A stretch of DNA of 64,000 nt from Gymnogyps californianus (lineage: Eukaryota > Chordata > Aves > Accipitriformes > Cathartidae): contig NC_059477.1 in assembly GCF_018139145.2 (NCBI RefSeq), positions 33,087,502-33,151,501 of the forward strand. The letters run 5' to 3'. The stretch's first letter is position 1. Each line of letters starts with the position of its first letter. Both the position numbers and the translations under genes were made by a program. Of this stretch, positions 890-37,398 are shown piece after piece. The notes under the pieces are model-generated. The model worked only from the letters and a program-made list of their open reading frames with translations, did no database searches and was not told where the DNA came from.

Positions 890-984
890 CATCGCCAGAA
901 TTTCACTCTCGACGTGGAGGAGCTCTGCATACTTTCCATGGGTAATATTAAGTTTCAGGGGGACCTGGCCGATAAATATTCTTA
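890..984 (-). CDS. HEG1: HEG1 exon: start of juxtamembrane SEA-like domain
   Basis: Acceptor CCCCTTTTCAG and donor ATG|gtgagt bound 95 nt that enter in phase 1 and leave in phase 0. Joined to the EGF exon (which ends in TTA G), the first codon becomes GTA and the read-through is CNLVRIFIG. This matches the human CNLVRTFV junction I remember. The rest reads VPLKLNITHGKYAELLHVES, ending EILAM. It has the alternating pattern of the human segment that ends LQEVENEI, with one N-glycosylation sequon (NIT). No further exon is visible from 889 down to 1. Confidence 0.75.
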
Positions 985-2613: not shown

Positions 2614-2733
2614 CTAAATTGCACTTTCCTTTTTCCAGCTCATATCCAAGAGGACACTGACAGATATAGGAGCCACGGGTGTTGTTGCAGGTGGCCAGCG
2701 CAGGACAAGGGTTGGAAAGACATTTATCCACAT
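2614..2733 (-). CDS. HEG1: HEG1 exon: calcium-binding-type EGF domain
   Basis: A 120-nt phase 1-1 exon with acceptor CCGCTTTTGTAG and donor TTTAG|gtaaga. It encodes [16 protein letters not shown], then [20 protein letters not shown] and KCNL. The six cysteines have EGF spacing. The leading D-V-D plus the Asn and Tyr between later cysteines fit a calcium-binding EGF consensus. It corresponds to the second human HEG1 EGF domain (DVNECLSNPCP...GYQLEKG). The exon's last G completes the valine codon of the next exon. This is the strongest folded-domain evidence that the locus is HEG1. Confidence 0.93.
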
Positions 2734-4986
2734 CTACAAAAGCGGAAAAAAACCCCAGATTATAATTACAGAATCACAAAAATCATCAACTGTTGGGCTA
2801 AAAAAGATCAACTTGGCTCCTCTTCTGTGACCCCCTGAGCATTATCAGATGCTTCATTGCATCATTTGCACGTACTATTTATCCTGTTCTTAATTATTCT
2901 GTTGGAGCTGAAAGAATAAATACAAACCACTTTCTCTTGAATATTCATTAAAAAGCCCTTGGGATCCAGTGTTGATCCATGTTAATATGAATACCCAGCT
3001 TCTCTACAGCACTGCTCATCTGCAGATCTCAGGGTGCTTTCCAAAGACAAACAACCCTACAGTTATGGATGGAGAGACCAAAGAAGGGACCTCGACAGAC
3101 AGAGCTAGACACGGCAGCATGGGCTGCTTCAGCAAAGTCCTGCCCTTTTCATCCAAGCCCTGTTTCCGTGATCCAAAGCTAGTGCTTGAACACTGATGCA
3201 GTCTGTAGATTACCCAGTAATGGTGGAGGCAGCCCTGGCTGCCGTCACCTCCTTTACGGGGGCTGCAGCCTCCTCCGTTCCGGGCTGGGGATGGTCACAG
3301 CAGTGATACCTGCCTGTGCCACCACTCATAAAGCACTTCCCGCTGGGTGAGAAAGGGCTTGGGGATGAGACACCAACTGTGAAATACAGAGTATCTGGGG
3401 ATTAATGACCGTAGTCTCAGATGCTTCATAGATTAGCCAACTCAAACTGCAAATTCTGGAGAAGATATCCAATACTTCCCTTTGGAAAAAAACATGCCCT
3501 GGTCAAAAATGTTCCTCTTGCTGTGTGTATGACTCACATGAGCACAAACGCACGTCACACACTTGTCCAAGGGCAGACCGTAGGCAGGACTACGGACTTG
3601 TTGACGACAAGGCGCTACAAGATGAGCAAGACAGCTTACACACCACTCGTACCTATTTTGCAGCTGCTGCCGAGCACTGCAGCAGAGGCAGGAAGGACGG
3701 GCTTTGCGGTTAAAGCACAAAGCGCAAGAGCCAAACCTGTGTGTGTATTTCCGACGGCGCCGCGAATACCCCGTGGCACCATGCAGGCCCTGCAGACCAG
3801 ACAATCCCGAGCCGACCTCCACATCAGGACACACCATTTGACGCAATCTCCATGTCTCAACTAGCCTGGCACAGCCACCTCAGCATCAGCGAGAAGCAGA
3901 TTTGGTGTCTCTGATATAAGCAGCCAGAAATGAGTGGGCGTATTTTAAAACGTTGGCTTTCACTTTGCTGTCCTTCAGTTTGCGCTTTGCACAGTGGGGA
4001 CTAGGGAAGCTTCTTCTCTCGCGGCACTGAGTGCCCACGTACAAAGCACCACGTCCAAGGCAGCAGAAGGATCTTTTGCATTCTGGTAAATGGCAAAACT
4101 CGGTATTTAAAGGGAAGAGCAACTTGGCAAATGTGTGAATCAGTTGGTAAAAAGGATACATTACCTTAATTTTTTGATAAAAAAAATCCATTGCTCTACA
4201 GTGAATTTTTTTTGCATGAAGCTATAGCTATAATTAAAACCAATATCAGCCTGAGAAATAACCTTTAAATACTTAATTATTGGATAGAATATATACTATT
4301 GCTGGTATTTCACTGAGATTAATGCCATTAGCACACGCAATATCCTACAGTGGCATGAGGGCCAGGCTCCTGAACTTTAAACACACAATCAATTTCCATT
4401 CACATAAAACTTCGTTCAGTGTATTTACTTGAGGAGATAAGGAGCCTGGCAGCAGTAATAAATGATTGTAACAACACACTCAGCGAGACTACGGTACGTA
4501 GCCTACCAGGAGAAGCAACAGGCCCTTGAGTAGATTATTTATTGAGGTGGGGAGAAAACAACCGTAGGTTGTAATAACAGAAGAAGTTCCAACACAAATA
4601 CCAAGTGCTGGCCAACCACCTTTTCTCATGAACAAGATAGGTATTGATCAACATCGATCAATATTGTCGACTGATTGACAAATATAAAATGCATCCTGTG
4701 CTTACCTGGAAGGTCAGTCAGCTTTATTTTCTTAAAATTCTCAAATTTCAGCTTAACATTTCTATCAGAAATGTTCACCAAAATGCTCAGCAGTTCAGCT
4801 TGATTGCTAAACCCTTAGCTTAAAAATACCAACATGGAGACCAAGTTCTTATCCTCAAACCCTGATGACAACAGACTTGTCATACATACATACATAACCC
4901 TTCAAAAACCCTCAAAGTGGGATCCAGGCGTTCCTGGTCCCCTTGTCCCTGGCCCCACCACTGATGAGCACCATTAGACACGCTAC
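2734..4986. other. HEG1 intron(s); expected first EGF exon not seen
   Basis: Human HEG1 has an EGF domain between the mucin stalk and the calcium-binding EGF. I searched both strands here for six-Cys EGF spacing ending in a CPPxWxG-like motif and found none. A donor-like CTTCCAG|gtaagc near 4704 follows a short open minus-strand stretch (ending KIKLTDLP) that does not look like HEG1. The sequence is otherwise AT-rich, with a small CATA repeat near 4880. Confidence 0.4.
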
Positions 4987-6353
4987 CTGTTGCTGGAGAC
5001 GACATCCTCAGCCCAGCCGTGCTACTTGACAGAGGAGCGGTGGTTGGCTTGGTAGCAGCCAAAGTAGTTGCAATGCTTACAGTGGTCTTGCTGGTTGGAG
5101 GGGCTTCAGAAGGACTCGTAACAGGGATGTTTTTCTCAGTGACTTTACCAGGCCTTGCAGTGGTGGGATCCACAGCTTCTGTGCTTTCACCAGTGGTATA
5201 CACATGCTTAGTGGCAGTGGGCGTTTGAGCTCTGTGGGCTTTCATGGTGCTAGCATCACCTGGGGTTGGCCAGTGACTGGCTGGTGTTGTCAGCACAGAA
5301 GGTTTCACTGTGGTCAGTGCCACTGCTGGAATGATGACGCTGTGGTTTGTTGCACTTGGTGAAGGACTAAGGGGTGCATCTGTTGGCCCAGCCCGTGGGG
5401 CATCGCTGGCCGTGGTGAGCAGCAGCGTTGCTTTCCCAAAGCTGTCCCCGTGGGTGGTGGCGACGCTCGGTGAGGCAGTCTCCGTTACCATCATGGGAGC
5501 GGACACGGATGCAATGTGTCCACCGAGCTGCTCTGTGGGTGCCGTAGGGAGAGGAGACCCAGAGGCGGTGAAGGTGGTGCTGTTTTGGGGCTGGGGCGTG
5601 ACATCGTTGTGCTTGTTGGTCCCTCTGGGCGAGCTCCCAGCCATGGCGGCTGTGGAGGACACACGCCTGACCACAGTTGTAGCTACAGAGGTGCTGTTTG
5701 ATCACTATCGTTGGACTGCGAGACGGATGATGGTGATGAAAACAGAGGCAATAAAGATGCTAATGAATAAGATGGGGAAAGCAAGGAGGAAGTTGGCAAG
5801 GAGGAAGACAAAGCCTGCAGAGGGGGTGAAGATGCCATCACAGAGGACAAGAGTGGCTCAGATGATTCTGATGATGTAAACAGATAAGTTGGTGGTGGTG
5901 TTGATGACAGCGAGTGAGGCAGCGATGACAGTGAGGAAGAGGCTGGAAATGCTGATGAAGACAGAGATGATCTGCCAGTGGTCAACAATTCAGAGTCAGT
6001 GTTGAAGAGAGTCGTATTTTGTACGCTGCCTGCAGAAGCAGAAGTCAATGGTTTGGAAGAATGTACCAACAATGGCTCTGTCGATGGTTCAACAAAACCG
6101 CCATCGCTGGATATGTTGCTCCTCCTGTCCTGTGCCACGGAAGATTTTGATGAATCAGAAGGGTTGGAAATTTCAGAAAAAAAGGTGGAACTTTCTGAGG
6201 AGTCAGCAGAGGTGCTGCTATTCGAGATAGACAGGAGGGTCCTTTCTCCTCCTCTGGTATATGTGGTTGAAATGTATGTGCCATCCGTATGAGAAACTGA
6301 GGTCCTTTTCTCAGCATCGATGCTACTGACTGGCTGATGGCTACTTGAAAAGC
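4987..6353 (-). CDS. HEG1: HEG1 large mucin exon, with one apparent frame break
   Basis: Acceptor TTTTACTCCAG and donor CAACAG|gtagcg bound 1367 nt. It starts FSSSHQPVSSIDAEKRT, the same SSH opening as the upstream array exons. It continues with GGERTLLSISNSSTSADSSE and AQDRRSNISSDGG, which align well with human HEG1 as I remember it (GERALLSI, ERSNISS, EPSTE). The remainder is extremely Ser/Thr/Pro-rich, with NST and NHS sequons, fitting a heavily O-glycosylated extracellular stalk. The frame changes once near 5697-5701 (…SNDSDQ to …STSVATTVV). The length is 2 modulo 3, where a phase 1-1 exon needs 0. One extra base would restore both frame and phase, so a missing base in the assembly is the simplest reading. 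Confidence 0.92.
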
Positions 6354-7355: not shown

Positions 7356-7696
7356 TTGTGAGATCATTTTGGAAAGAAGAATAAGTGGGTATCTTGGAAG
7401 AACGTGTGAAGAGCGTCTCCGTCGCAAAGCCCGCAAAGCCCCGCTGCTGGTGGAGGTGTTGGCCGTCCCACTCTGCTCCACCGACACCGGCTGAGCCGGC
7501 CCTGGAGAGCTGGCAGTTTCAGCGTAGGAAGCGGAGCTCTCCGTGCCACCGGCCAGTGCGCCGTCTGTCACCAAGTGCAGCGTCCTCTCTCTACCGCCAG
7601 CAGACATGGATGAACTGTACACAGGATCAGTGATGGGGCTGGACATCCTTTCCTCAGCACTCGAGCTGCTTAGGGAGTGATGGCTGCTGCCCACGG
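7356..7696 (-). CDS. HEG1: HEG1 mucin array exon, with apparent frame break
   Basis: Acceptor AATCCTATTCCAG, donor CACAA|gtaagt, 341 nt. It opens VGSSHHSLSSSSAEERMSS, the array signature, and has an RTLHLV block where sister exons have RTLRSL. The first two thirds are Ser/Thr-rich, up to NTSTSSG. Staying in that frame gives a basic, non-mucin end that leaves the exon in the wrong phase. Shifting by one base at the C-run 7439-7442 gives FATETLFTRSSKIPTYSSFQ and the phase 1 exit seen in all sister exons. One missing base is inferred. Confidence 0.8.
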
Positions 7697-8233
7697 CTGG
7701 AATAGGATTGAAAAGCAGGCATCTGATTTTATCATCTCAGAGCAGAGAGCACTTGTGACTTCTACAATAATTCTGTTTGGAAATGCAGATTAATAAAATT
7801 GCACAGATAAACACAGATTAAACACAGATTAAGTAGATCTCACATATCTATCACCTTAAATGTGGATTTAACACACAAAGCCTACTCCAAAGAAACAGGA
7901 CTGTCCAAATACAGAGGGACAATCAGTACCATTAGAGTCATAATGGCATATTTATGTTATTTATAATTATCAGCCCAACCCAGGCAGGGAGTAGATGTGT
8001 CCTACAGCAAGAAGCTACACATCTCATTCCTGAGACTTTTTTGTTAAGCATCAACAGCTGCAGATATACAACACCAAGGAGCAGAATCACCACCACTTAT
8101 AAATCCTGCCCACGACACCCACAACAGCTCTGACACGTGTTGGTGGTCATATCAACCCCACAGAAGAGGGGAAGGGAGAGGCAGTGGGTTTTTTCCTAGT
8201 TCAAACACCATCCCAGAGTTCAGAAAAACTCAC

Positions 8234-8533
8234 TGGAAGGTTCACTGGTGGCTGTGAAGTAGGTGGAGACCTCGGATGAAAGGGTGACCTTGGGCTCTGA
8301 GTACCCTGCTTGGCCAGGTGAGACGTGTCCTGCTCCAGGCCATGCTGTGGAGGATGGGAGGGGGCCGGTGTGGGGCTGCCCAGCTGTGTCCGGGTGAGAC
8401 GTGGAGCTGTCTGGCACTGTGCTCCACGTGCCGTGGCTAGCTGCAGCCTGAGATGTCCCCTCCTGGTGGCTGGAGAGTGTGGTCGAGACATACATGGTCT
8501 CAGTAGGAGCACCAGAAACTCTTCTTCCTCTCT
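8234..8533 (-). CDS. HEG1: HEG1 mucin array exon
   Basis: A 300-nt phase 1-1 exon with acceptor TTTGCAATTCCAG and donor TTCCA|gtgagt. The translation starts RGRRVSGAPTETMYVSTTLS and continues with many Ser, Thr, Pro and Gly, ending TATSEPSS. It lacks the SSH opening of its neighbours, so it is either divergent or an older unit. The alternative longer open frame here is not Ser/Thr-rich and does not fit the phases. Confidence 0.75.
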
Positions 8534-9237
8534 CTGGAATTGCAAAGCAGAGATATACATAGATGTATATAAAAATATATATTTTGTATATTAATAATAC
8601 CTTTGAGTCCTCTACAGGGACTAAAATCTGAATATTTCAATCCCCACAGTGGAGGTGGCACTTGGTGACCAACATCACTTATTTGCTAAGTGGGGTTCCC
8701 AAGCAGTCTGTACTTTTCCCCTTTACACCAGAAAAATAAAACAGATTGGGGTGCATGGCGTTTCTGAAGGAGAACAGTGGGAGGGAGGTAGGACCTGGTC
8801 TTGAACGTCCTGCAGAAAATTCCCTTGGGCGGACCAGTGGGTTTCAAACCAGCTCTGGTGGGACCCTGGCAGCAGAGCTGAGGCTGAAACACATGATAAC
8901 TGCGATATAAGGAACGGCAAGAGGTCTACTGATCCCTTGCCACGTCTCGTGCCAGGCTCCCCCGGTTTGAGGGCTGAGGTCAAGGCTCCATGGCAGCCTT
9001 CACATGTGGCCCAGAAGAGCTGCATGGCCATCTAGTTCCCAACATGAGAAGCACTACCCCAAGTGCTGTGAGGTGAATAACTCACCAACGGTGCAGTGCT
9101 CAGATGCCCTTCACTATAAACCAGGCTTACTAAAAAGGCAAATCTAGTTTAAAGCTAGAAAAGGGAGGGTGGGACCTCAGGAGTGGGGTAAGGATGAGGG
9201 ATGTCCTCCACGGCAAACTGGGAACCACAAGACCCAC

Positions 9238-9567
9238 CTGAAGCACTTGGTGAAGGTGAAGGCACTGAAATGCTGGGAGAAAATGCAGGCAGCAGCTTCG
9301 TTGGAAGCTCCCTGAGTCCAGCATCGCTCTGTGAAACATCGCTCTGCCTCCCAGACTCTGTTGCTGATGAGGACGGCAGAAGGACCACATCCAAGGAGCT
9401 GGTGCGGGGTGAAGCGGGAGCGGAGCTCCCTGCTGCGCTGGATGCTGTGTGGGTGTCTGACACAGGCACTGTGCTCCTCTCCCCACTACTGGTGGCTATC
9501 ACTGAGCTGGGCGTACTGGTGAGAGGAGCATCGGGCAGGTGTCCTCCTGTAGCTGAGGTCCCTTCTG
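9238..9567 (-). CDS. HEG1: HEG1 mucin array exon
   Basis: A 330-nt phase 1-1 exon with acceptor GCCCTTTCTCAG and donor CTTCAG|gtgggt. It starts AEGTSATGGHLPDAPLTSTP and ends SPSPSAS. It is dominated by Ser, Thr, Ala and Pro with few hydrophobics, as expected for an O-glycosylated stalk. The end motif (SPS-SAS) resembles the SPSASES endings of the sister exons at 10291 and 13667. Confidence 0.8.
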
Positions 9568-10290
9568 CTGAGAAAGGGCAAAGCAAAATGGATTTATACA
9601 CCCTGAGCTATAAATAAGTGGGTGTGCTCTCTTCCATCACCACCCTTAGGCTGACAGCACAGATACAATGTGGTGGAAGATCCAAACCTGGAGAAAACAC
9701 TAACTGTGAAGACACAACCCTTTCCTGTGCAAGGAGGTGCTGCTCACAGAAGGACACCCTGAAGAGGGTACTAGGAACAAGTCGTGGGAGCGCTGTTGGG
9801 TTTGCTTCCATTCGGCGCTGCTCCCGGCGCCACAGTCCAGCCACGGGCGCCATGCGCCCGCACTGCCACCACAGCACCCGTGGTGAGCAAGGTGGGGTTA
9901 CAGCAGCACCTAACTCCCTGAGACTCGAAACAAAGCACGACAGGCTTGTATGGGATCAGTAAATACTGCATTTGCATCCCAGCGTGGGAGTCAGGAATGA
10001 CTGGTGTTGCCTCCTGCTTGTATAAACACAGCCAACGGGGCAGTCTTGAAATTGTGCTGTCTCAGAAAACACACCAAATCTCGGGGCCAGACTGCTCTTG
10101 CAGTAAGGCTGGGTTTTTCTGGTGACTAAATGCAAAAAACAGCTAATGCATTTTTCTCTGGAAGTTGAAATTTTCCTCCATAATGCCCAACGCCATTGTC
10201 CAGCACCTTCTAGCATGCCCTCACTCCTCCATACAGAGCGGATGTTTGAGGTCTACAGGAGGAAGCCCCACGGGGACGGTCAGAGCTCAC

Positions 10291-10599
10291 CTGGGGAAGG
10301 GCTTTCCGAAGCAGATGGCGAGCCTGTGAGCAACGGGTCCATGGATGACATGGTGGCACCTCTGCCAATACCACCCTGGGCTCCCAAAGAGGACCGGGTA
10401 TGGTCTGGAGAGCTGATGGTTTCGGTACCAGAGGTGGAAATCTCTGTGGTTTGGGCCAGTCTGGTGCTGGCTGACAGAGACCTTAACGTCCTCCCTCCAC
10501 CCTTGGCGGCTGTTGTGGAAACGGAGGCACTGGTGGTAGGGAAATCAGTTCTTCTCTCTGTTGACAGGATGCTGAATGACACATGGCTGCTTCCAGTAG
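10291..10599 (-). CDS. HEG1: HEG1 mucin array exon, twin of 13667-13972
   Basis: A 309-nt phase 1-1 exon with acceptor TCACATCTTAG and donor CCCCAG|gtgagc. It opens ATGSSHVSFSILSTERRTDF, carries GGGRTLRSLSASTRLAQTTE, and ends GSPSASESPSP. Nucleotide identity to the exon at 13667-13972 is evident along nearly the whole length (for example, the shared run covering accttaacgtcctccctccac). The GGRTLRSL block also resembles GGPRTLRSLTVS in human HEG1 as I recall it, which anchors the array to this gene. Confidence 0.9.
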
Positions 10600-11124
10600 C
10601 TAAGATGTGATAAAGAAACAATTTACATTTTTACACATGTGAAACTATAAATAAACAGATGAGTTTTCTTCCAGTAACACCCAGAGGCAGCAAGTACATG
10701 AACAAGTAGAAAATATGAGAAGATGTCAATCCAGAGAAAATAGGAAATTTCTAAAGATGTGAATCCTTCCTACAGAAATTTGTCTTCTAAAAAACATGGT
10801 TTGATACTGAGAAAAGTGCTATTATATAAAAACTGTTGAACTACTAACGCTGTGCACTTGGTTTCATCATTATGTGCCTGAGTGCACTCTGTGCTGCTAG
10901 AACAAATACCGTAACAACCCAGAAAAGCCTGGAAATCAGTTCAGACAAGGCACAATGCTGAGCAGTGTGAAGGTCTTAGAGAAGAAGTCTGAAGAAATGG
11001 GATCAGGGGGATCAGACCCCTTCAGCACTGCAGTGGGGTCTAGGATCAAAAAGTGGCATGAAGGACCTCAGAGACCACATTCAAAGTTGCCTTAAATTTG
11101 TTGAGCTGGTTCAATTTCTGGGAA

Positions 11125-11240
11125 GCAGCATGGTCCAAGGGGTAGGACAGAGGGCAGGAACTGGATTCCAGTCCCTGGGACTGCCGGGACATGATCTAAT
11201 CCTTGCTTGCTTAGTTCTCTTGCCTATAAAATGGAGATAG
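11125..11240 (+). repeat. Ancient MIR-like tRNA-derived SINE remnant
   Basis: The segment runs from gcagcatggtccaaggggta to cctataaaatggagatag. It follows the layout of the old amniote MIR/CORE-type SINEs (tRNA-like head, a ttcnagtccc box, and a tail with aaaatgg-gata). It is heavily diverged, and the call is by eye only. Confidence 0.4.
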
Positions 11241-11514
11241 CAACTGGAGATAGTAAAAAAAGAATCATGATTTGAAAGTTAATTATTTTTCTTGGCATAA
11301 TGAAACTTTCCACACATGTGCCCTTTCTGTAGAAAACCCAAATCACATTTTTTGGTCAAGCAAGAGCTGAAATATTTCAGACACAAAATCACACTGCATC
11401 CTTCCAAACAATATATTCGGCATAGCAGAAAAGAGTCGGGCAAGTGTAAGATACACTAACAGTCCTCCTTTTACTTACAAGAAAAATGGTATTTCACTTC
11501 TAACTTGAGCTCAC

Positions 11515-11847
11515 CTGCGGAAGGATCTTCCGAAGGAGAGTGAGAGCGTGTTAGCGAAGGGTCTGCCACGCGCTCGGTGAAATCCGTGCTTTCTCTAGAC
11601 CCATGAACTCCGTAGGTCTCTCTCTCAGAAGACGCGGATGAGGATTGGATCATGTCCAAGGTCCTGTACATGCCACCACTGGACGTGGAGACTTCTGCTG
11701 CCCATCGGCTGCTGCCTGTGGCAGACCTCAGGGGCCTCCCGCCACTGCCGGTGGCTGTGGCTGAAATGAAAGCGCTTGTAGGAGAGGAAGCAAGGGAGTT
11801 TTTCTCTGTCGTTGAGCTGTTAACTGGTCGGTGGCTGCTTCTGACAC
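11515..11847 (-). CDS. HEG1: HEG1 mucin array exon
   Basis: A 333-nt phase 1-1 exon with acceptor TTGTATCTTAG and donor CGCAG|gtgagc. It starts GVRSSHRPVNSSTTEKNS and carries GSGGRPLRSATGSSRW, clearly homologous in position to the GGRTLRSL block of its sisters. It ends SPSEDPSA. It shares the donor context gtgagctc with several array members. Confidence 0.88.
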
Positions 11848-12539
11848 CTAAGATACAATAATACCAGGTTTGATTTATGCATATAGAGCTATACATTTGA
11901 GGGATTGTTTGTACAGCGTACGTTTCTATACTGTTCGTTGAGAAATTGAAGAGACCAAGTTCTCAAGCTGGAAAAGGCGCTGCTCTGAGAAGAGGTGAAT
12001 CCCTTACGTTCAAGCACATGTGGCTTACAAAAAGCCATGAAAATCTCAACTTAAAACCATGTTTTTTAACTGCAGGCTGTGCACAATATCCAATTTATGC
12101 ATTTAAGCTGCCTTCGAGCCTGTTTAAATCAGGAGTATACATCTCTAACTTCAAACCAAATCTAGAGGATGAGCTTAAACAGGCCTGGTTTAGATTTTCT
12201 AGTGACAGTCCAGAGAGCCAAGCTGCCGTCTCAGTGTCGGGTTGACGGCATGGCTGTGGGGCCGAGCCCCCCACAGCACTGGACACCCAGGGCCACGCAG
12301 GGCCAGACACAGCCTCACCCGTAAGATGCTCAGAAACACCCCAGCACCCCAGCCTGGCGTTTGACCCAGCCTGATTTACCCCATGTTTAGTGGCTGTTTA
12401 GAGCCCCAGGGCTCTCCCAAACGGCAGCGCTGGGGATGCCGATATTTCACCAGCTCACCAGGAGCAGGAGCTGCACTACGACTCCACAGAGCGATGGGCT
12501 TAATTGTGAATTAATGGTGAATGGTGGGGCAGAGCTCAC

Positions 12540-12733
12540 TTGGGACCACTCCAAGGGCACTGGGCGAGTCAGCACTGTCACGGCTACGGGGAGTCCCAGA
12601 ACGCTGCCTCTCTTACAGACCAGCCTGCATGGCAGACGCAGCACCGGGTGACGGCTGCAAATCCCCAGCAAAAGTGTCTCCGGCAGGGAAAAAGTGCATG
12701 CACATATTTCCAACCGATGGCTGCTCTTCCCAG
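12540..12733 (-). pseudogene. Decayed HEG1 mucin array exon
   Basis: Between the live exons at 11515 and 12964 lies a remnant. On the minus strand, CTGGGAAGAGCAGCCATCGG matches the GSSHR-type opening of array exons (read GKSSHR). The base pair before it is TG instead of the acceptor AG. The far end keeps the family donor CCCAA|gtgagctctgcc, almost identical to that of the exon at 10291. The length (194 nt) is not a multiple of three. The frame that fits the donor has an in-frame TAA but is still Ser/Pro-rich (TPRSRDSADSPSAL). I infer an exon copy that has lost its acceptor and drifted. Coordinates follow the two homologous ends. Confidence 0.6.
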
Positions 12734-12963
12734 CACGGGAGTTTCACTAGCAATGAGGACATTGAAGTTTTCCACTTTTTCACCCAAAAGCTGACACCCA
12801 CTCCCACCCTTCCCACCAGCCCCGCTGCCAGCCCGATACAGCCGGTAATAAAAATATCTATGTATCCAATAGTGACTGATGGCCATATCTAAAGAAAAAC
12901 AGCATGAGGATGCAAAATCTCATCCAGTCCCAAAGCAGCCAACTTTCAGACTAACAAATTTAC

Positions 12964-13260
12964 CTCTGAAAGTACTTTCGGAGGCAGAGAGGGAGCTTGT
13001 GAGCAAAGGCTCCCCGGGAGGTGCTGGGAGATCGGTGGCTTCCCGTGAGCTGTTAGGACGGTGTGTCCCAGCCCTCGAGGAGGAGAAAGTCTCCCCCAAC
13101 GAGCTGGTGGGGTCAGTGCTGGTGGCAGAGCCCCTTGTCACTCGGGGGGACCCCAGTGCCCCCGCTGCCACGCTGGGCATGTCAGCACTGTGGGCGTCCG
13201 AGTGCAGTGTCGCCTCTTCTGCAGCTGGGATGCTCTTGGGTTCGTAATTGCTGCTAAAGG
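12964..13260 (-). CDS. HEG1: HEG1 mucin array exon
   Basis: A 297-nt phase 1-1 exon with acceptor CTCCTTTTTTTAG and donor TCAGAG|gtaaat. It opens AFSSNYEPKSIPAAEEAT (compare the GSSYQPSNVSAMERR opening of the next exon), then runs Ser/Thr/Pro/Ala-rich to SSLSASESTFR. The SASES end motif is shared with the exons at 10291 and 13667. Confidence 0.85.
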
Positions 13261-13666
13261 CTAAAAAAAGGAGAAAAGAAATATAAAACTGCATACACGT
13301 AAATGAAAACAGCTGGATAGGTTTCATCCCACTATCAGTAGATGTAGACAATGTATGTGTGAATATTCAATACGGAAATATTTAATACTGGGAAATAATT
13401 AAGACAAGAAAAAAAATGGTCTCTATATAGGAACTCCTGAAGTTATTGCTTGCAAAATTCTACTGAAAGTTTTCAAGGAAAATTTATCTTCTTCCAACAA
13501 GAATAATATTTATCCATACTTTCATTTCTGTGAAATGTTTTTAAATGTACAGAATGTGCCAAATACAATATTATTCCTCCTTTCTTTAAAATAAAAAGGA
13601 TGTATTTTGTTTATAAAGGGTCTTTAAATAATGTTCTGAGTTATACAGCTAGCTATCAAAACTCAC

Positions 13667-13972
13667 TCGTGGAAGCGCTTTCTGAAGCAGACGGTGAGCC
13701 CGTGAGCAACGGGTCTACACCTCTGCCACCACCACCCTGGGCTCCCAAAGACATCCCAGGGGACTGGGTCTGGTCCGAAGAGCTGGTGATTTCGGTACCA
13801 GAGGTGGAAATCTCTGCTGCATCAGCCAGTCTGGTGCTGACTGGCAGAGACCTTAACGTCCTCCCTCCACCCTTGGTGGCTGTTGTGGAAACGGAGGTGC
13901 TTGTGGTGGGGAAATCCGAAACTCTCCTCTCCATGGCCGAGACATTGGATGGCTGGTAGCTGCTTCCAACGG
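13667..13972 (-). CDS. HEG1: HEG1 mucin array exon, twin of 10291-10599
   Basis: A 306-nt phase 1-1 exon with acceptor TTGTGTCGTAG and donor CCACGA|gtgagt. It starts AVGSSYQPSNVSAMERRVSD, carries GGGRTLRSLPVSTRLADAAE and ends GSPSASESAST. It is the closest relative of 10291-10599, differing by a few small in-frame indels. The upstream intron flanks of the two also match (tataaa…acagatg…ttttcttcc), so the duplication included intron. Confidence 0.9.
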
Positions 13973-14477
13973 CTACGACACAATAAAAAAAACTGGGTTT
14001 ATACATATGAAATTATAAACAGATGGATCCATTTTCTTCCCAGATGCTTACAGCGCACATACGGATATTAAGCATAGGAAGTTTTCAATCTGGACAAAGT
14101 GCTCTTTTGGAAAGGCATGAATCCCCTCGCCGCAGGAAGACCTTACACAAAACCCAGGGCTCGCTGCCAGGACAGCACGGCTTCACGAGAGCCGGGGCGG
14201 CTCGGCCAGCGGGAAGCCCCACGGGACAAGGACTGTGGGGACTTGCCTTTAATTCCCACCTTTGCTCTAAGACTGGTGGAAATTGGCCCAGGCTCTCTTG
14301 GGATTTTTTTGTAGCTTGAACACGGCATCAAACAGCAAAGGGGGGAAACCTGAGCACAGCCATGTTCCCATATGAGCCTGCAACTCACTACACATCCCAG
14401 AGCTTAACAGGACATAGGGAAAAATGCTTAAGCACAAAATAGGGTAAAACAACAAATCATAGACTAACCGAGCTCAC

Positions 14478-14666
14478 CCGCAGCAGTGTTTTCCAAAGCC
14501 AGGTGGGAAGGGGTGAGCCGGCGCTCCGTGGAGGGCCCGGGGGAGCGTCCCCACGCCGGGGCCACTGAGGAGGGCACCAAGGCCAGGGGCTGAGCCGTGG
14601 AGCCGGGCACTTCCCTTTGGATACTGGACCTCGGGTTTTCTGCAGCCCTGATGCTGCTCCCAGCAG
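14478..14666 (-). CDS. HEG1: HEG1 mucin array exon, short
   Basis: A 189-nt phase 1-1 exon with acceptor CCCTCTGTCACAG and donor CTGCGG|gtgagc. It starts AAGSSIRAAENPRSSIQRE, keeping the GSS opening, then is Pro/Ser-rich (ALVPSSVAPAWGRSPGP) and ends LALENTAA. It is shorter than its sisters and lacks the GGRTLRSL block, so the middle may have been lost. Confidence 0.78.
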
Positions 14667-15296
14667 CTGTGACAGAGGGAAAGGACATGTCAATATGAGA
14701 ACCCTGGAGATGTGTTTGCTCCTGGCAAGCCCTGGGCACAGGATAAGGACTCAGCAACACCAAGGTCTTCAATAAGTTCATGTGGAGTGGGTCAAAGCCT
14801 CCGTTTTTGAGACCTCCAGCAATTAGCTGCTTGCAAAGCAAGTGAGGGGAAGCCGCGGAGCCCAGGGATCTCGAGTTTGTTGTCCTGTACAGGTTGTTGA
14901 AGCACAGGCATCTCACCCTCTCTAGCCGAGAGCAAACCCACTGGTGTGTCCGGGAGCGTGGATTACCAACCTCACGCCCCACTACAGCACCACTTGGGTG
15001 GGACACACAGCTCAGGTGGGGCTGGGACCTTGCCTTTGCTCTGCAGCTGGCACTGAACCAGCCGAGATATTTCGCAGCTGCAGATGCCCACTCTGCAGAA
15101 AATGTTGGGGGGTTTTGGACCAAATGATTTTTTCCAGTGCTTTTTCCTGCTTTTGGCAGGGAATTTCAGCTAACCATCCAAATAATAACAAACAGAGCGC
15201 ATGCAAAACACAGCATCTTCTCTGTTTCAAGAAAGCAAAAGCTATATAAAGGCTTTTCAAAGCTATAAAACAAATCCATGGGCCAGCAAAGCTCAC

Positions 15297-15590
15297 CTCC
15301 AAAAGTGCTGTTCGTGGCAGGCGATGCTGTGAGCGAAGGGCTTGTGGAGTCCCCTGTGACATCCCTGGGGTGTAGCATGGTGTGGTTTGCACCAGTCTGA
15401 GTACTGGAAGCTTGGGAGGAGGACTGGGGCTGTCCCAGAGAGCCAGGGAGGGGGGTGCTGGGAAGGGGCTGCAGTGTCCCCCCGCTGCTCCCCAAGGGGC
15501 TGGGTGAAGTGGCTGCAGTGCCTGTGGGAGGGCTGCCAGGCAGCTCAGTGCCCACCCAGCCGCTCGCCGGTCGAGAGGGGCCGCCAGTGC
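15297..15590 (-). CDS. HEG1: HEG1 mucin array exon
   Basis: A 294-nt phase 1-1 exon with acceptor CCCATTGCCTTGCAG and donor TTTGGAG|gtgagc. It encodes a Thr/Ser/Pro/Gly-rich stretch (TGGPSRPASGWVGTELPGSP to SLTASPATNSTF) with two N-glycosylation sequons (NHT, NST). The GSSH opening is absent. Placement, phase and composition make it part of the stalk. Confidence 0.78.
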
Positions 15591-15966
15591 CTGCAAGGCA
15601 ATGGGGGAAAGCAAATGAGAGCACAGAGACGGGCTGAGATGCCCACACAGCATCCTCCGCTGTCACCCTCCGCCTCCGCCCACAGCCCGCAGTCCCCTTG
15701 CCAGTACTCTGGCTACAGCAACTTCGTGTTTGGGAGCTGCATCGAGTAATTCATAATTTTCAAGGCCAGGAGAAGCTGCACAGATCCTCCTCTCCACCCT
15801 CGTGCATGAAGCAAGCCAGAAAACTGCCCTGAGCACATGGTGAGGATGGAGGGCCGGATCCAGTGCACAAAGCTCTAGCAATGCAGGGGAGCCAGGCTTA
15901 ACTGATGCCCGGTTTCTCTGGGGAACAGCATCCACCTTGTTCCCAGGCTGAACTGGGATGGCTCAC

Positions 15967-16197
15967 CCAGGTGATGAGTCTCTGTGGATGAAGGCAGCAG
16001 CACCGTCCTCATTGCATTGTCAAACCCCGTCACGTCCCAGGCCCCACGGTGCCCGCCTAGCGTCCTCTCGGCCGAATCGGTGCTGACGGCTGCCAAAACC
16101 AGCGGCGTGCTCTCGGCATCTGCAGGGGTGCTGGGAGAAGCCAGAGCCCTCTTGTCTCTCTCCTGGCTGCCCACAGCACGGTGATGGCTTCCAGTGG
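15967..16197 (-). CDS. HEG1: HEG1 mucin array exon
   Basis: A 231-nt phase 1-1 exon with acceptor CATTGCTTTCCAG and donor CACCTGG|gtgagc. It opens ATGSHHRAVGSQERDKRAL, a clear variant of the array opening. It carries STDSAERTLGG in the place of the RTLRSL block and ends LLPSSTETHHL. Confidence 0.8.
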
Positions 16198-17221
16198 CTG
16201 GAAAGCAATGCAGAGAGGGTCATGTTCCCCCTGGACAAGTTAATTTGTCTCGGCTGGGGTGGCAGCAGCATCACCCGCAGTGGTACCCAGCCCTACCATA
16301 TGCAATAGGTAGGGTCACAGCTGCATCCCCTGTGTTTCCTCTATTTAACACAGAGCACCCTGCAAGAGGGACTGCTGGGAACAGAGGGTTTGTGTCACCA
16401 AAAAATAATGGTATTTCAAAATTTGTCTTCATTTGTGCATGGCAAAAGAAATCCAGATTTTTTAAAAAAACATTACAAATGCAGAAGGCAGTAAGGAGCT
16501 TACACCAGGAGAGCCAGCAGCTGGCAGCCTGGGCATGCCAGCTCCACACTCTAGTCCCTAAGCAGGAAAAAAAATGAGGAATTAAAAAATTAAAGAAAAC
16601 CTCTATGCTCATATCTCAGCAAGACACTTACTTCATCCAGGGATATTAAGAAAAAACCTGAAGTTGGGACAGGGCAATCAGCACAGCCTTGTCCTGCTGG
16701 TGTGGGAAACAGGCTTTGATTTAGCACATGCTTTAAAAAGTACATTGGTTTACTCATGACCACAGTCCCACCAAATGTGGTGAAGATTATGAACAAGCCC
16801 AAAGGTAAGTGTTCACTTGCACGACTTCCACACAAGGACCTCAGCCATAAATCATGATGCAGCTGGTCAGATATTTTTAACTTGGGCACTTATAATTTAG
16901 GTTGGATTCGCAATGGGGTTCAGCTCCTCCCGGGAGGAGGTGTGGGGATGCCGGCGGTCTCCGCTCTGCGTGCAGCCTTTGAGCTCCGTGGATGGGCAGG
17001 ACTCTCTGGAGTGCTGCTGGGTGGTGAATAATGACAGCGGCAGCTCCTGAGAATCACCTTCATTGTCACATTAAAAAAAAAAATCTGCTTTCCTGGGATT
17101 GGATTTCTTCCAAAAATCAGAATTTCTAGCAGTGGGGCGGGAATACTTCCTAACCCACCAGCTATGCTCAGTCCATGGGCTGAGTACAGCAAACAGGGAC
17201 TCTTGCATCGATAAAACTCAC

Positions 17222-17500
17222 CGGGAGGACGGCTGTGGGCGGGCAGGCGGGTCGCTGTCCCGGCAGACGGGCTGTCCGGGGGTCCTGCTCCCGATGGGGT
17301 GACATCCCCACCACCAGTGGCGGGACCAACATGCCCCGTGACCCTGCTTGCTGCCGGCACCGTACCATGCCTGGCAGGCAGCGATGCCCGCTCCTCGCTC
17401 CCGGCCAGCATCGTCACCAGCTCCACACTGTCCACAAGAGTAGCAGAAGTCCTTATCTCCGTGTCCGAACTTCTTCTCACCTGATGGCTGCTTTCAATGA
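17222..17500 (-). CDS. HEG1: HEG1 mucin array exon, most 5' one recognised
   Basis: A 279-nt phase 1-1 exon with acceptor TTTTTCCTTTCAG and donor CTCCCG|gtgagt. It starts VIESSHQVRRSSDTEIRTSA and continues LVDSVELVTMLAGSEERASL, ending PAHSRPP. The SSHQ opening matches the large mucin exon (SSSHQPVSS). Its phase 1 entry is compatible with the phase 1 exit of exon 1, though other exons probably lie between. Confidence 0.82.
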
Positions 17501-37190: not shown

Positions 37191-37349
37191 CCGGGCTGCC
37201 GGCGTGTCCCGCGGCGGGAGGCGAGCAAGGGCGGCCGAAACGGCTTCGGGACGGAGGAGGAGGAGGAGGAGGAGGAGGAGGAAGACGAGGAGGAAGACGC
37301 CGTGGGGAAGCGAGGGGCAGCGACCCGGCCGGCGGGACCAGCCCCAGCC

Positions 37350-37381
<32 letters not shown>

Positions 37382-37398
37382 GTGCAAGCTGCCGGCAT
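37191..37398 (-). CDS. HEG1: HEG1 exon 1: start codon, signal peptide, Pro-rich segment
   Basis: The ATG at 37398-37396 sits in a good context (gcgccATGC, with G at -3). It opens MPAACT followed by ten Leu and GLGLVPPAGS, a textbook cleavable signal peptide. The ten Leu are all CTG codons (the 37351-37380 repeat). A Pro run (residues about 40-49) from a CCT repeat and a basic stretch follow. The exon ends at CCCGG|gtgagt after 208 nt, in phase 1, matching the phase 1 entry of the mucin exons. Human exon 1 also encodes a Leu-rich signal peptide and Pro/Arg-rich low-complexity sequence. No upstream in-frame ATG was seen. Transcript support is not available. Confidence 0.85.

Follow-up and report, generated by a model that had tools for sequence, protein, structure and literature searches.

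The Ser/Thr/Pro-rich stalk of HEG1 in Gymnogyps californianus: an old array of symmetric exons with apparent gene conversion between two of them

A stretch of 64,000 nucleotides (nt) from Gymnogyps californianus (assembly GCF_018139145.2, contig NC_059477.1, positions 33,087,502 to 33,151,501 of the forward strand; hereafter, the window) carries on its minus strand the gene HEG1, the coding part of which runs from 37398 downward and on past the window start. The stalk of the encoded protein is very probably the product of an old array of eleven small exons in phase 1-1 (E1 to E11), with a twelfth copy opening the large exon that follows (E12). The middle of the array would have turned over, and two middle exons, E5 and E8, would have been converted in birds.

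The eleven small exons lie between 17500 and 7356 and all have usable splice sites. They are rich in Ser, Thr and Pro (29-51% together), contain no Cys, and are all open and entered in phase 1. Ten of the eleven have a length divisible by three, the exception being E11 (341 nt); this confirms what an earlier note, made from the letters alone, had described. Stops are present in 18 of the 22 alternative frames, the open ones being both of E4, one of E3 and one of E10. The small units span 63-114 codons, and the twelfth unit takes up the first ~110 codons of E12 (1.37 kb). The G-S-S-H/Y opener that had been reported for many exons was recovered in a GSS(H/Y)-like form in eight of the eleven (E1, E2, E4-E8 and E11); it is weak in E3 and lacking in E9 and E10. 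The GGRTLRSL-like block reported for several was likewise found, as GGxRTLRSL, clear in E5, E8 and the start of E12 and degenerate in E7 and E11. The acceptor of E9 is a NAGNAG (9567/9564), giving 330 or 327 nt, and the crane (Grus) models X1 and X2 differ by a one-residue shift immediately before this exon.

Protein comparisons identify the gene as HEG1. The counts of bird and reptile rows given here rest on the best 120 of 238, the best 120 of 583 and the best 120 of 290 matches. Among the matches listed, the closest was a protein of Sarcoramphus papa labelled LOW QUALITY (94% identity, 80% query coverage), and most of the bird proteins bear the name HEG homolog 1. The window encodes an EGF_CA domain (1e-8) and shows collinearity with bird HEG1 that extends from exon 1 to the exons near EGF2, and the large mucin exon E12 (1367 nt) lies directly 3' of the small Ser/Thr exons. 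The tail of the Sarcoramphus orthologue (P0001), which is not the window's own, resembles PDB 3u7d chain B, 'Protein HEG homolog 1' (1.2e-12); a motif search of the sequence adjoining the window start (L002) did not find the window's own HEG1 tail exon. A mucin gene separate from HEG1 was considered and rejected, because unbroken bird proteins continue through the array into the HEG1 EGF region.

The relatedness of the array exons was examined with a hidden Markov model (HMM) built solely from six units of Emydura, a side-necked turtle, and searched against 1420 six-frame peptides of the window. At E<1e-3 this turtle-unit HMM matched the start of E12 (108 bits), E5 (65), E7 (40), E8 (39), E11 (37), E10 (27) and E1 (16; E 8e-4), and the second half of E11, in the other frame, added 29 bits; E9 fell short of the cut-off (E 0.013). 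When every peptide was shuffled 20 times, none matched at E<1e-3, and the best scored 9.0 bits. The HMM aligned one unit per exon, the arrangement of chicken MUC13, in six of the eleven exons and at the E12 start, weakly in E9, and did not reach E6 and E2-E4. The most informative parts of the unit are the opener SSHQP..S.TEKR and the FTRGGERTLRSLTN block. After iteration, with training partly on bird matches, ostrich unit 2 (partly) and unit 3 also scored. Because the turtle HMM fails or is weak for E2-E4 and E6, their descent is argued from position, phase, openers, flanks (E6) and ostrich intermediates. The kinship of the units is firm for six small exons and E12, and likely for most of the others. 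As a separate observation, an N-glycosylation sequon occurs in 164 of 317 units within the 20 residues overlapping and following the FTRGGERTLRSLTN block.

The intron flanks, compared with the splice-site bases left out, retain traces of how part of the array may have been built. Upstream, six of the 66 exon pairs exceeded z>4 (E5-E8, E8-E9, E5-E7, E5-E6, E5-E9 and, marginally, E3-E11), downstream one of 66 did (E5-E7), and none of 66 random intron-1 pairs. The short flanks that sister introns had been said to share are therefore real among E5-E9, and duplication of exons together with their flanks is supported as the origin of these middle exons.

The array appears to be older than birds. With the turtle-only HMM, full-length matches numbered 12 in Chrysemys, 11 in Gavialis, 7 in the lizard Elgaria and 7 in Struthio; after iteration there were 12 each (eleven small and one fused) in Chrysemys, Gavialis and Elgaria, one Elgaria unit being weak (E 0.003), 10 in ostrich, and up to 15 in Lepidochelys and Macrochelys. 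Ostrich unit 1 was found with E1 of the window, and ostrich unit 4 was placed by position alone. Reptile exon boundaries are inferred from protein, not DNA, and the species for the HMM counts, the isoform comparison and the 18-species conversion trees were chosen by eye from lists. In a tree of units from the window, ostrich, gharial, turtle, lizard, marsupial and elephant, units 10, 11 and 12 cluster by number across birds, gharial and turtle, unit 11 also with lizard and unit 12 with lizard and mammals; turtle units 4-9 and lizard units 2-8 cluster by lineage. In a tree of seven turtles and gharial, birds excluded, units 1, 2, 3, 10, 11 and 12 each stay together and the middle is reshuffled within turtles. 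The common ancestor probably already had the array, since gharial and turtles carry a similar number of units and share units 10-12 with birds; the gharial-turtle tree suggests at least six small units and the fused one in that ancestor, and about eleven are probable.

Unit number differs between groups: small units number 5 in human, 9-11 in birds and up to about 14 in turtles. Among the bird proteins (best 120 of 238), all twelve units are present in 40 of 120 and E4 alone is missing from 38, and the four waterfowl and landfowl rows examined are without E2 and E4, through either exon loss or the choice of gene model. Ostrich pieces were among the queries for this count and for the exon-pair scan described below, so the presence of ostrich itself in them is a self-match. 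Three sea-turtle HEG1 entries (P0246, P0248 and P0272) carry an extra PF02110 domain call and are perhaps fused gene models.

In human HEG1, according to the passages of PMC5374711 used here, the arrangement resembles that of the bird in its signal and Pro-rich exon 1, small Ser/Thr exons and large exon 7 (residues 631-1086, 456 amino acids (aa)), which matches E12 in position and size. Unlike the bird, human has five small exons rather than eleven, namely exons 2-5 (residues 107-530, 424 aa) and exon 6 (531-630, 100 aa), and has EGF1 in exon 8. The statement in the earlier note that mammalian HEG1 packs this region into fewer, larger exons is thus right as to number but not as to size: the five average about 105 aa, and the large exon is like the bird's. 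In a separate observation, Callithrix jacchus HEG1 (P0333, residues 26-873) carries in tandem two copies, 97.9% identical, of a 424-residue block as long as human exons 2-5 together; in Aotus (P0334) the start motif recurs after 423 residues, a New World monkey duplication.

The earlier note had the stalk growing in the bird lineage by repeated exon-plus-intron duplication. Duplication is upheld by the E5-E9 flanks, but the bird timing is not, as eleven small units and a fused one are found in Chrysemys and Gavialis; the comparison with reptiles that had been set beforehand went against lineage-specific growth, the reptile unit count, taken from proteins, matching the bird's. Recent exon-plus-intron duplication within birds, with reptiles reaching a similar number independently, would accommodate the upstream flanks shared by E5-E9, the alignment of E5 with E8 (71% over 499 nt including flank), the fewer units of mammals, and the lack of clear one-to-one partners for bird middle units in gharial or turtle. 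We nevertheless think such a bird-specific expansion unlikely and disfavour it on the reptile counts and trees: gharial and turtle equal the bird in unit number, units 10-12 of birds cluster with those of reptiles, units 1, 2, 3, 10, 11 and 12 are common to gharial and turtle, and conversion of an older pair accounts for the closeness of E5 and E8.

Evidence for that conversion comes from the 103 of 234 bird proteins, among the matches listed, that hold both exons, compared in segments whose limits (22, 34, 60 and 80) were set by eye. Over residues 1-22, E5 and E8 agree at 0.44 within species versus 0.72 (E5) and 0.79 (E8) between orthologues. Over residues 61-80 the two exons of four palaeognaths agree at 0.99 within species versus 0.34 and 0.41 to the Neoaves orthologues, and those of four waterfowl and landfowl rows at 0.85 within versus 0.39 and 0.47 between; in the remaining 95 rows the within-species value is 0.51. 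Trees of 18 species, based on short alignments (22 and 63 columns), differ accordingly. In the tree of the N-terminal part, E5 and E8 form two clean clades (support 100/99). In the core tree, a species' own E5 and E8 pair with each other in ostrich (98/87), rhea (96/89) and emu (97/85), not in kiwi; the palaeognaths form one clade (100/99), and E5 and E8 of Neoaves are again separate (81/76 and 90/86). The core tree needs 8 label changes, and a single E5 clade was rejected (approximately unbiased test, p-AU 0.00016). That is, the first 22 residues sort by exon and the following ~60 by clade, and by species in three palaeognaths.

A scan of every exon pair in the 18 species left 12 of 66 after the score filter, and E5-E8 alone stands out (123.8 bits within, 93.8 between; own copy best in 8 of 18); among the pairs past the filter, no effect was found for conversion between other bird exons. 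At the DNA level in the window, E5 and E8 match at 143/161 positions of the core (0.888) and 57/68 of the 3' exon part (0.838), at 43/65 of the 5' exon part (0.662), and at 90/130 (0.692) and 61/101 (0.604) of the upstream and downstream intron flanks. These comparisons indicate that E5 and E8 have evolved in concert in birds: the core has been homogenised repeatedly, and its boundary lies some 22 codons into the exon. The pattern is consistent with conversion events that took place in ancestors of the main clades and recurred in individual palaeognaths, the Neoaves copies diverging afterwards. The pair offers a clear example, within crown birds, of two exons of the same gene undergoing gene conversion.

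Selection for a shared peptide, by convergence or constraint, might instead have kept E5 and E8 alike, as the core includes a block that is among the most informative in the unit. We regard this as very unlikely: in ostrich, rhea and emu the E5 and E8 cores of the same species pair with each other, the core DNA in the window is 0.888 identical against 0.60-0.69 in the 5' exon part and flanks, and homogenisation extends to residues past the conserved block.

Predicted gene models suggest that array units are skipped in frame. Models of eight of the 11 bird species differ in array units (Grus, Pezoporus, Neopsephotus, Aphelocoma, Corvus, Pogoniulus, Zonotrichia and Melospiza), and those of the other three differ only toward the C-terminus. 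The Corvus model drops E2 with about 17 extra residues, Aphelocoma apparently drops a short E10, and the Pezoporus models also include a partial E2. In all four turtle species the differences between models are multiples of 114 residues, two of the species having small additional pieces; in Callithrix the array varies by 100, 112 or 212 residues from model to model, and the lizard Hemicordylus is less clean. Symmetry holds for ten of the eleven window exons, and skipping was observed solely in database gene models. For human HEG1, two cloned transcripts with and without exon 6 are reported in the passages of PMC5374711.

Several points weigh against the account of an old array with turnover, skipping and conversion. 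Across all 103 birds the core is not reversed, with 0.75 within species versus 0.80/0.80 between at residues 35-60, and 0.55 versus 0.63/0.64 at residues 61-80. With the turtle-unit HMM, E2, E3 and E4 gave no match among the 1420 six-frame window peptides and E6 stood at E 1.8; the iterated HMM, trained on matches that included birds and used without a shuffle control, left ostrich units 1 and 4 unmatched, and E4 is without a profile match even in ostrich. In Gavialis and Elgaria the gene model has no residues ahead of its first unit. Units 1 and 2 of birds fall close to unit 2 of turtle and gharial but do not pair off cleanly one-to-one, only units 10-12 group one-to-one with those of birds, and both unit trees were read without support values. 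Because the middle units turn over, the equal counts of eleven could in part be a coincidence. The isoforms, compared in species with at least two predicted models, are database annotation, not reads.

Part of the interest of the array lies in the biology of the protein. HEG1, a receptor of blood vessels, binds KRIT1 of the cerebral cavernous malformation (CCM) complex and is linked to blood-flow sensing, and zebrafish heg1 is flow-induced and stabilises Krit1, in the passages of PMC5794256 drawn on here. For human HEG1, not for birds, the passages of PMC5374711 report a long O-glycosylated Ser/Thr region. In the mechanism that we propose, most or all array units would be diverged copies of one ~110-residue unit, the twelfth fused to the start of the large exon, and the middle units would have been replaced separately in each lineage, the array ends being conserved. 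Because every unit is symmetric and free of Cys, gain, loss or conversion of a unit, or its skipping in splicing, would disrupt neither frame nor fold. The length of the O-glycosylated stalk may then vary, and be tuned by unit number, with no change to the EGF region or the KRIT1-binding tail. Each glycosylated residue contributes roughly 0.25 nm, and six extra units of ~100 residues would add on the order of 150 nm. If the array sets stalk length, species and isoforms would be natural length variants for testing reach above the membrane. A more speculative proposal, which we hold doubtful, is that the stalk is an evolvable length module with fixed ends, the middle of which is duplicated, lost and converted and from which splicing adds or removes single units; E5/E8 conversion would be maintained since both copies must present the same glycosylated core, and length would vary by lineage and tissue with endothelial shear.

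The closest known case is chicken MUC13. According to the passages of PMC1552070 (Lang, Hansson and Samuelsson 2006) used here, its Pro/Thr/Ser (PTS) domain has one exon per 20-aa repeat, alternative splicing was proposed as a length control, and MUC13 adjoins HEG, described there as a PTS/EGF/transmembrane neighbour with no mention in those passages of an exon array. Both proteins thus spread a Ser/Thr/Pro stalk across many exons with one repeat unit each, but the MUC13 units are 20 aa and nearly identical, whereas those of bird HEG1 are 63-114 aa and mostly very diverged. Human HEG1 is described in PMC5374711, as far as its cited passages go, as being without typical tandem repeats and outside the MUC family. 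Canonical mucins of that family are marked by near-identical tandem repeats with a VWD or SEA domain; the bird units are diverged copies. In concerted evolution by conversion as treated in the passages of PMC2720389, paralogues are closer within species than orthologues over part of their length, as E5 and E8 are; unlike those duplicated genes, the partners are two exons of one gene, the boundary is intra-exonic, and several bird clades are affected. We found no account of the HEG1 exon array or its gene conversion in the open literature, many subscription journals lying outside that scope. Further work is best directed at the E5/E8 conversion and at the old array, the ends of which are conserved.

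E11 and E12 are each one base short relative to Sarcoramphus papa, the protein of which reads through both sites. The E11 deletion is internal to the exon, near 7440 in a run of G, and leaves the exon halves in different frames; that of E12, near 5693, is not in a G run. An intron within E12 was tried as the cause of the break there and rejected, with no donor of at least 6/9 between 6331 and 5550 and the Sarcoramphus protein reading through. An alternative E11 donor (7352, 345 nt) was rejected as a weaker site that would leave the second half in the non-conserved frame. Both deletions are most likely assembly indels. Since both frame breaks are present in the window sequence, HEG1 might be decaying in this bird; we consider this highly improbable, as the Sarcoramphus protein is intact over both sites (though it is labelled LOW QUALITY, and correction of the model is possible), EGF2 and the exons after it continue to match, the E11 deletion falls in a run of G, as assembly indels typically do, and HEG1 is required for heart development. 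An assembly or gene-prediction artefact that copied one exon over the other, conceivable for E5 and E8 in that the other birds are known from predicted proteins only, is hardly credible, as both exons keep exon-specific N-terminal parts in each species, in palaeognaths, waterfowl and landfowl, and stand in place with distinct flanks in the window DNA.

Table 1. Positions of the HEG1 exons and related features in the window.
Feature	Positions	Strand	Basis
HEG1 exon 1, coding part (signal peptide, Pro-rich; ends in phase 1)	37191..37398	-	tblastn with Sarcoramphus residues 1-64; donor read from DNA
E1, 279 nt, phase 1-1	17222..17500	-	splice sites, phase; turtle-unit HMM E 8e-4
E2, 231 nt, phase 1-1	15967..16197	-	splice sites, phase; groups with ostrich unit 2; no turtle-HMM match
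E3, 294 nt, phase 1-1	15297..15590	-	splice sites, phase; groups with ostrich unit 3; no turtle-HMM match
E4, 189 nt, phase 1-1, cassette in crane models	14478..14666	-	63 aa skipped in Grus X4; no turtle-HMM match
E5, 306 nt, phase 1-1, apparent conversion partner of E8	13667..13972	-	splice sites, phase, turtle HMM, trees
E6, 297 nt, phase 1-1	12964..13260	-	splice sites, phase; HMM E 1.8; upstream flank resembles that of E5
E7, 333 nt, phase 1-1	11515..11847	-	splice sites, phase, turtle HMM
E8, 309 nt, phase 1-1, apparent conversion partner of E5	10291..10599	-	turtle HMM, trees; absent from some gene models
E9, 330 nt (327 with second AG of NAGNAG)	9238..9567	-	splice sites, phase; HMM E 0.013
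E10, 300 nt, phase 1-1	8234..8533	-	splice sites, phase, turtle HMM
E11, 341 nt, 1-nt deletion near 7440	7356..7696	-	turtle HMM; Sarcoramphus comparison
E12, large mucin exon, 1367 nt, opens with twelfth unit; 1-nt deletion near 5693	4987..6353	-	turtle HMM 108 bits; tblastn
EGF1 exon (human exon 8) relic, decayed, probable	3300..3380	-	turtle EGF1 query 32.7 bits versus best 28.5 of 200 shuffled
EGF2 (calcium-binding EGF) exon, phase 1-1	2614..2733	-	Pfam EGF_CA 1e-8; boundaries read from DNA
HEG1 exon following EGF2	890..984	-	tblastn; boundaries read from DNA

The first EGF domain of human HEG1, EGF1, is encoded by exon 8 in the passages of PMC5374711, and the human arrangement of EGF1 and EGF2 was not seen in birds. 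Among the matches listed, the six-Cys pattern of EGF1 was found in none of the 207 bird rows with a locatable EGF2 (28 of 235 were not located) and in every one of the 115 non-bird rows, out of 120, for which EGF2 could be located; this non-bird set is biased because nearly all of it was gathered with an EGF1-containing query (the EGF1-EGF2 region). Emydura and Gopherus, found without this bias, carry EGF1, as does gharial. The lack of EGF1 is common to birds and is therefore not evidence against orthology. A probable relic of the EGF1 exon lies at the expected place in the window, with the acceptor and part of the frame kept and several cysteines lost; gharial (25.4 bits) and lizard (22.7) EGF1 queries match the same spot at scores within the shuffled range. 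The loss of EGF1 in birds would be a second natural experiment. By eye, the read-through gene models of pelican, secretarybird and owl appear to contain the EGF1 relic.

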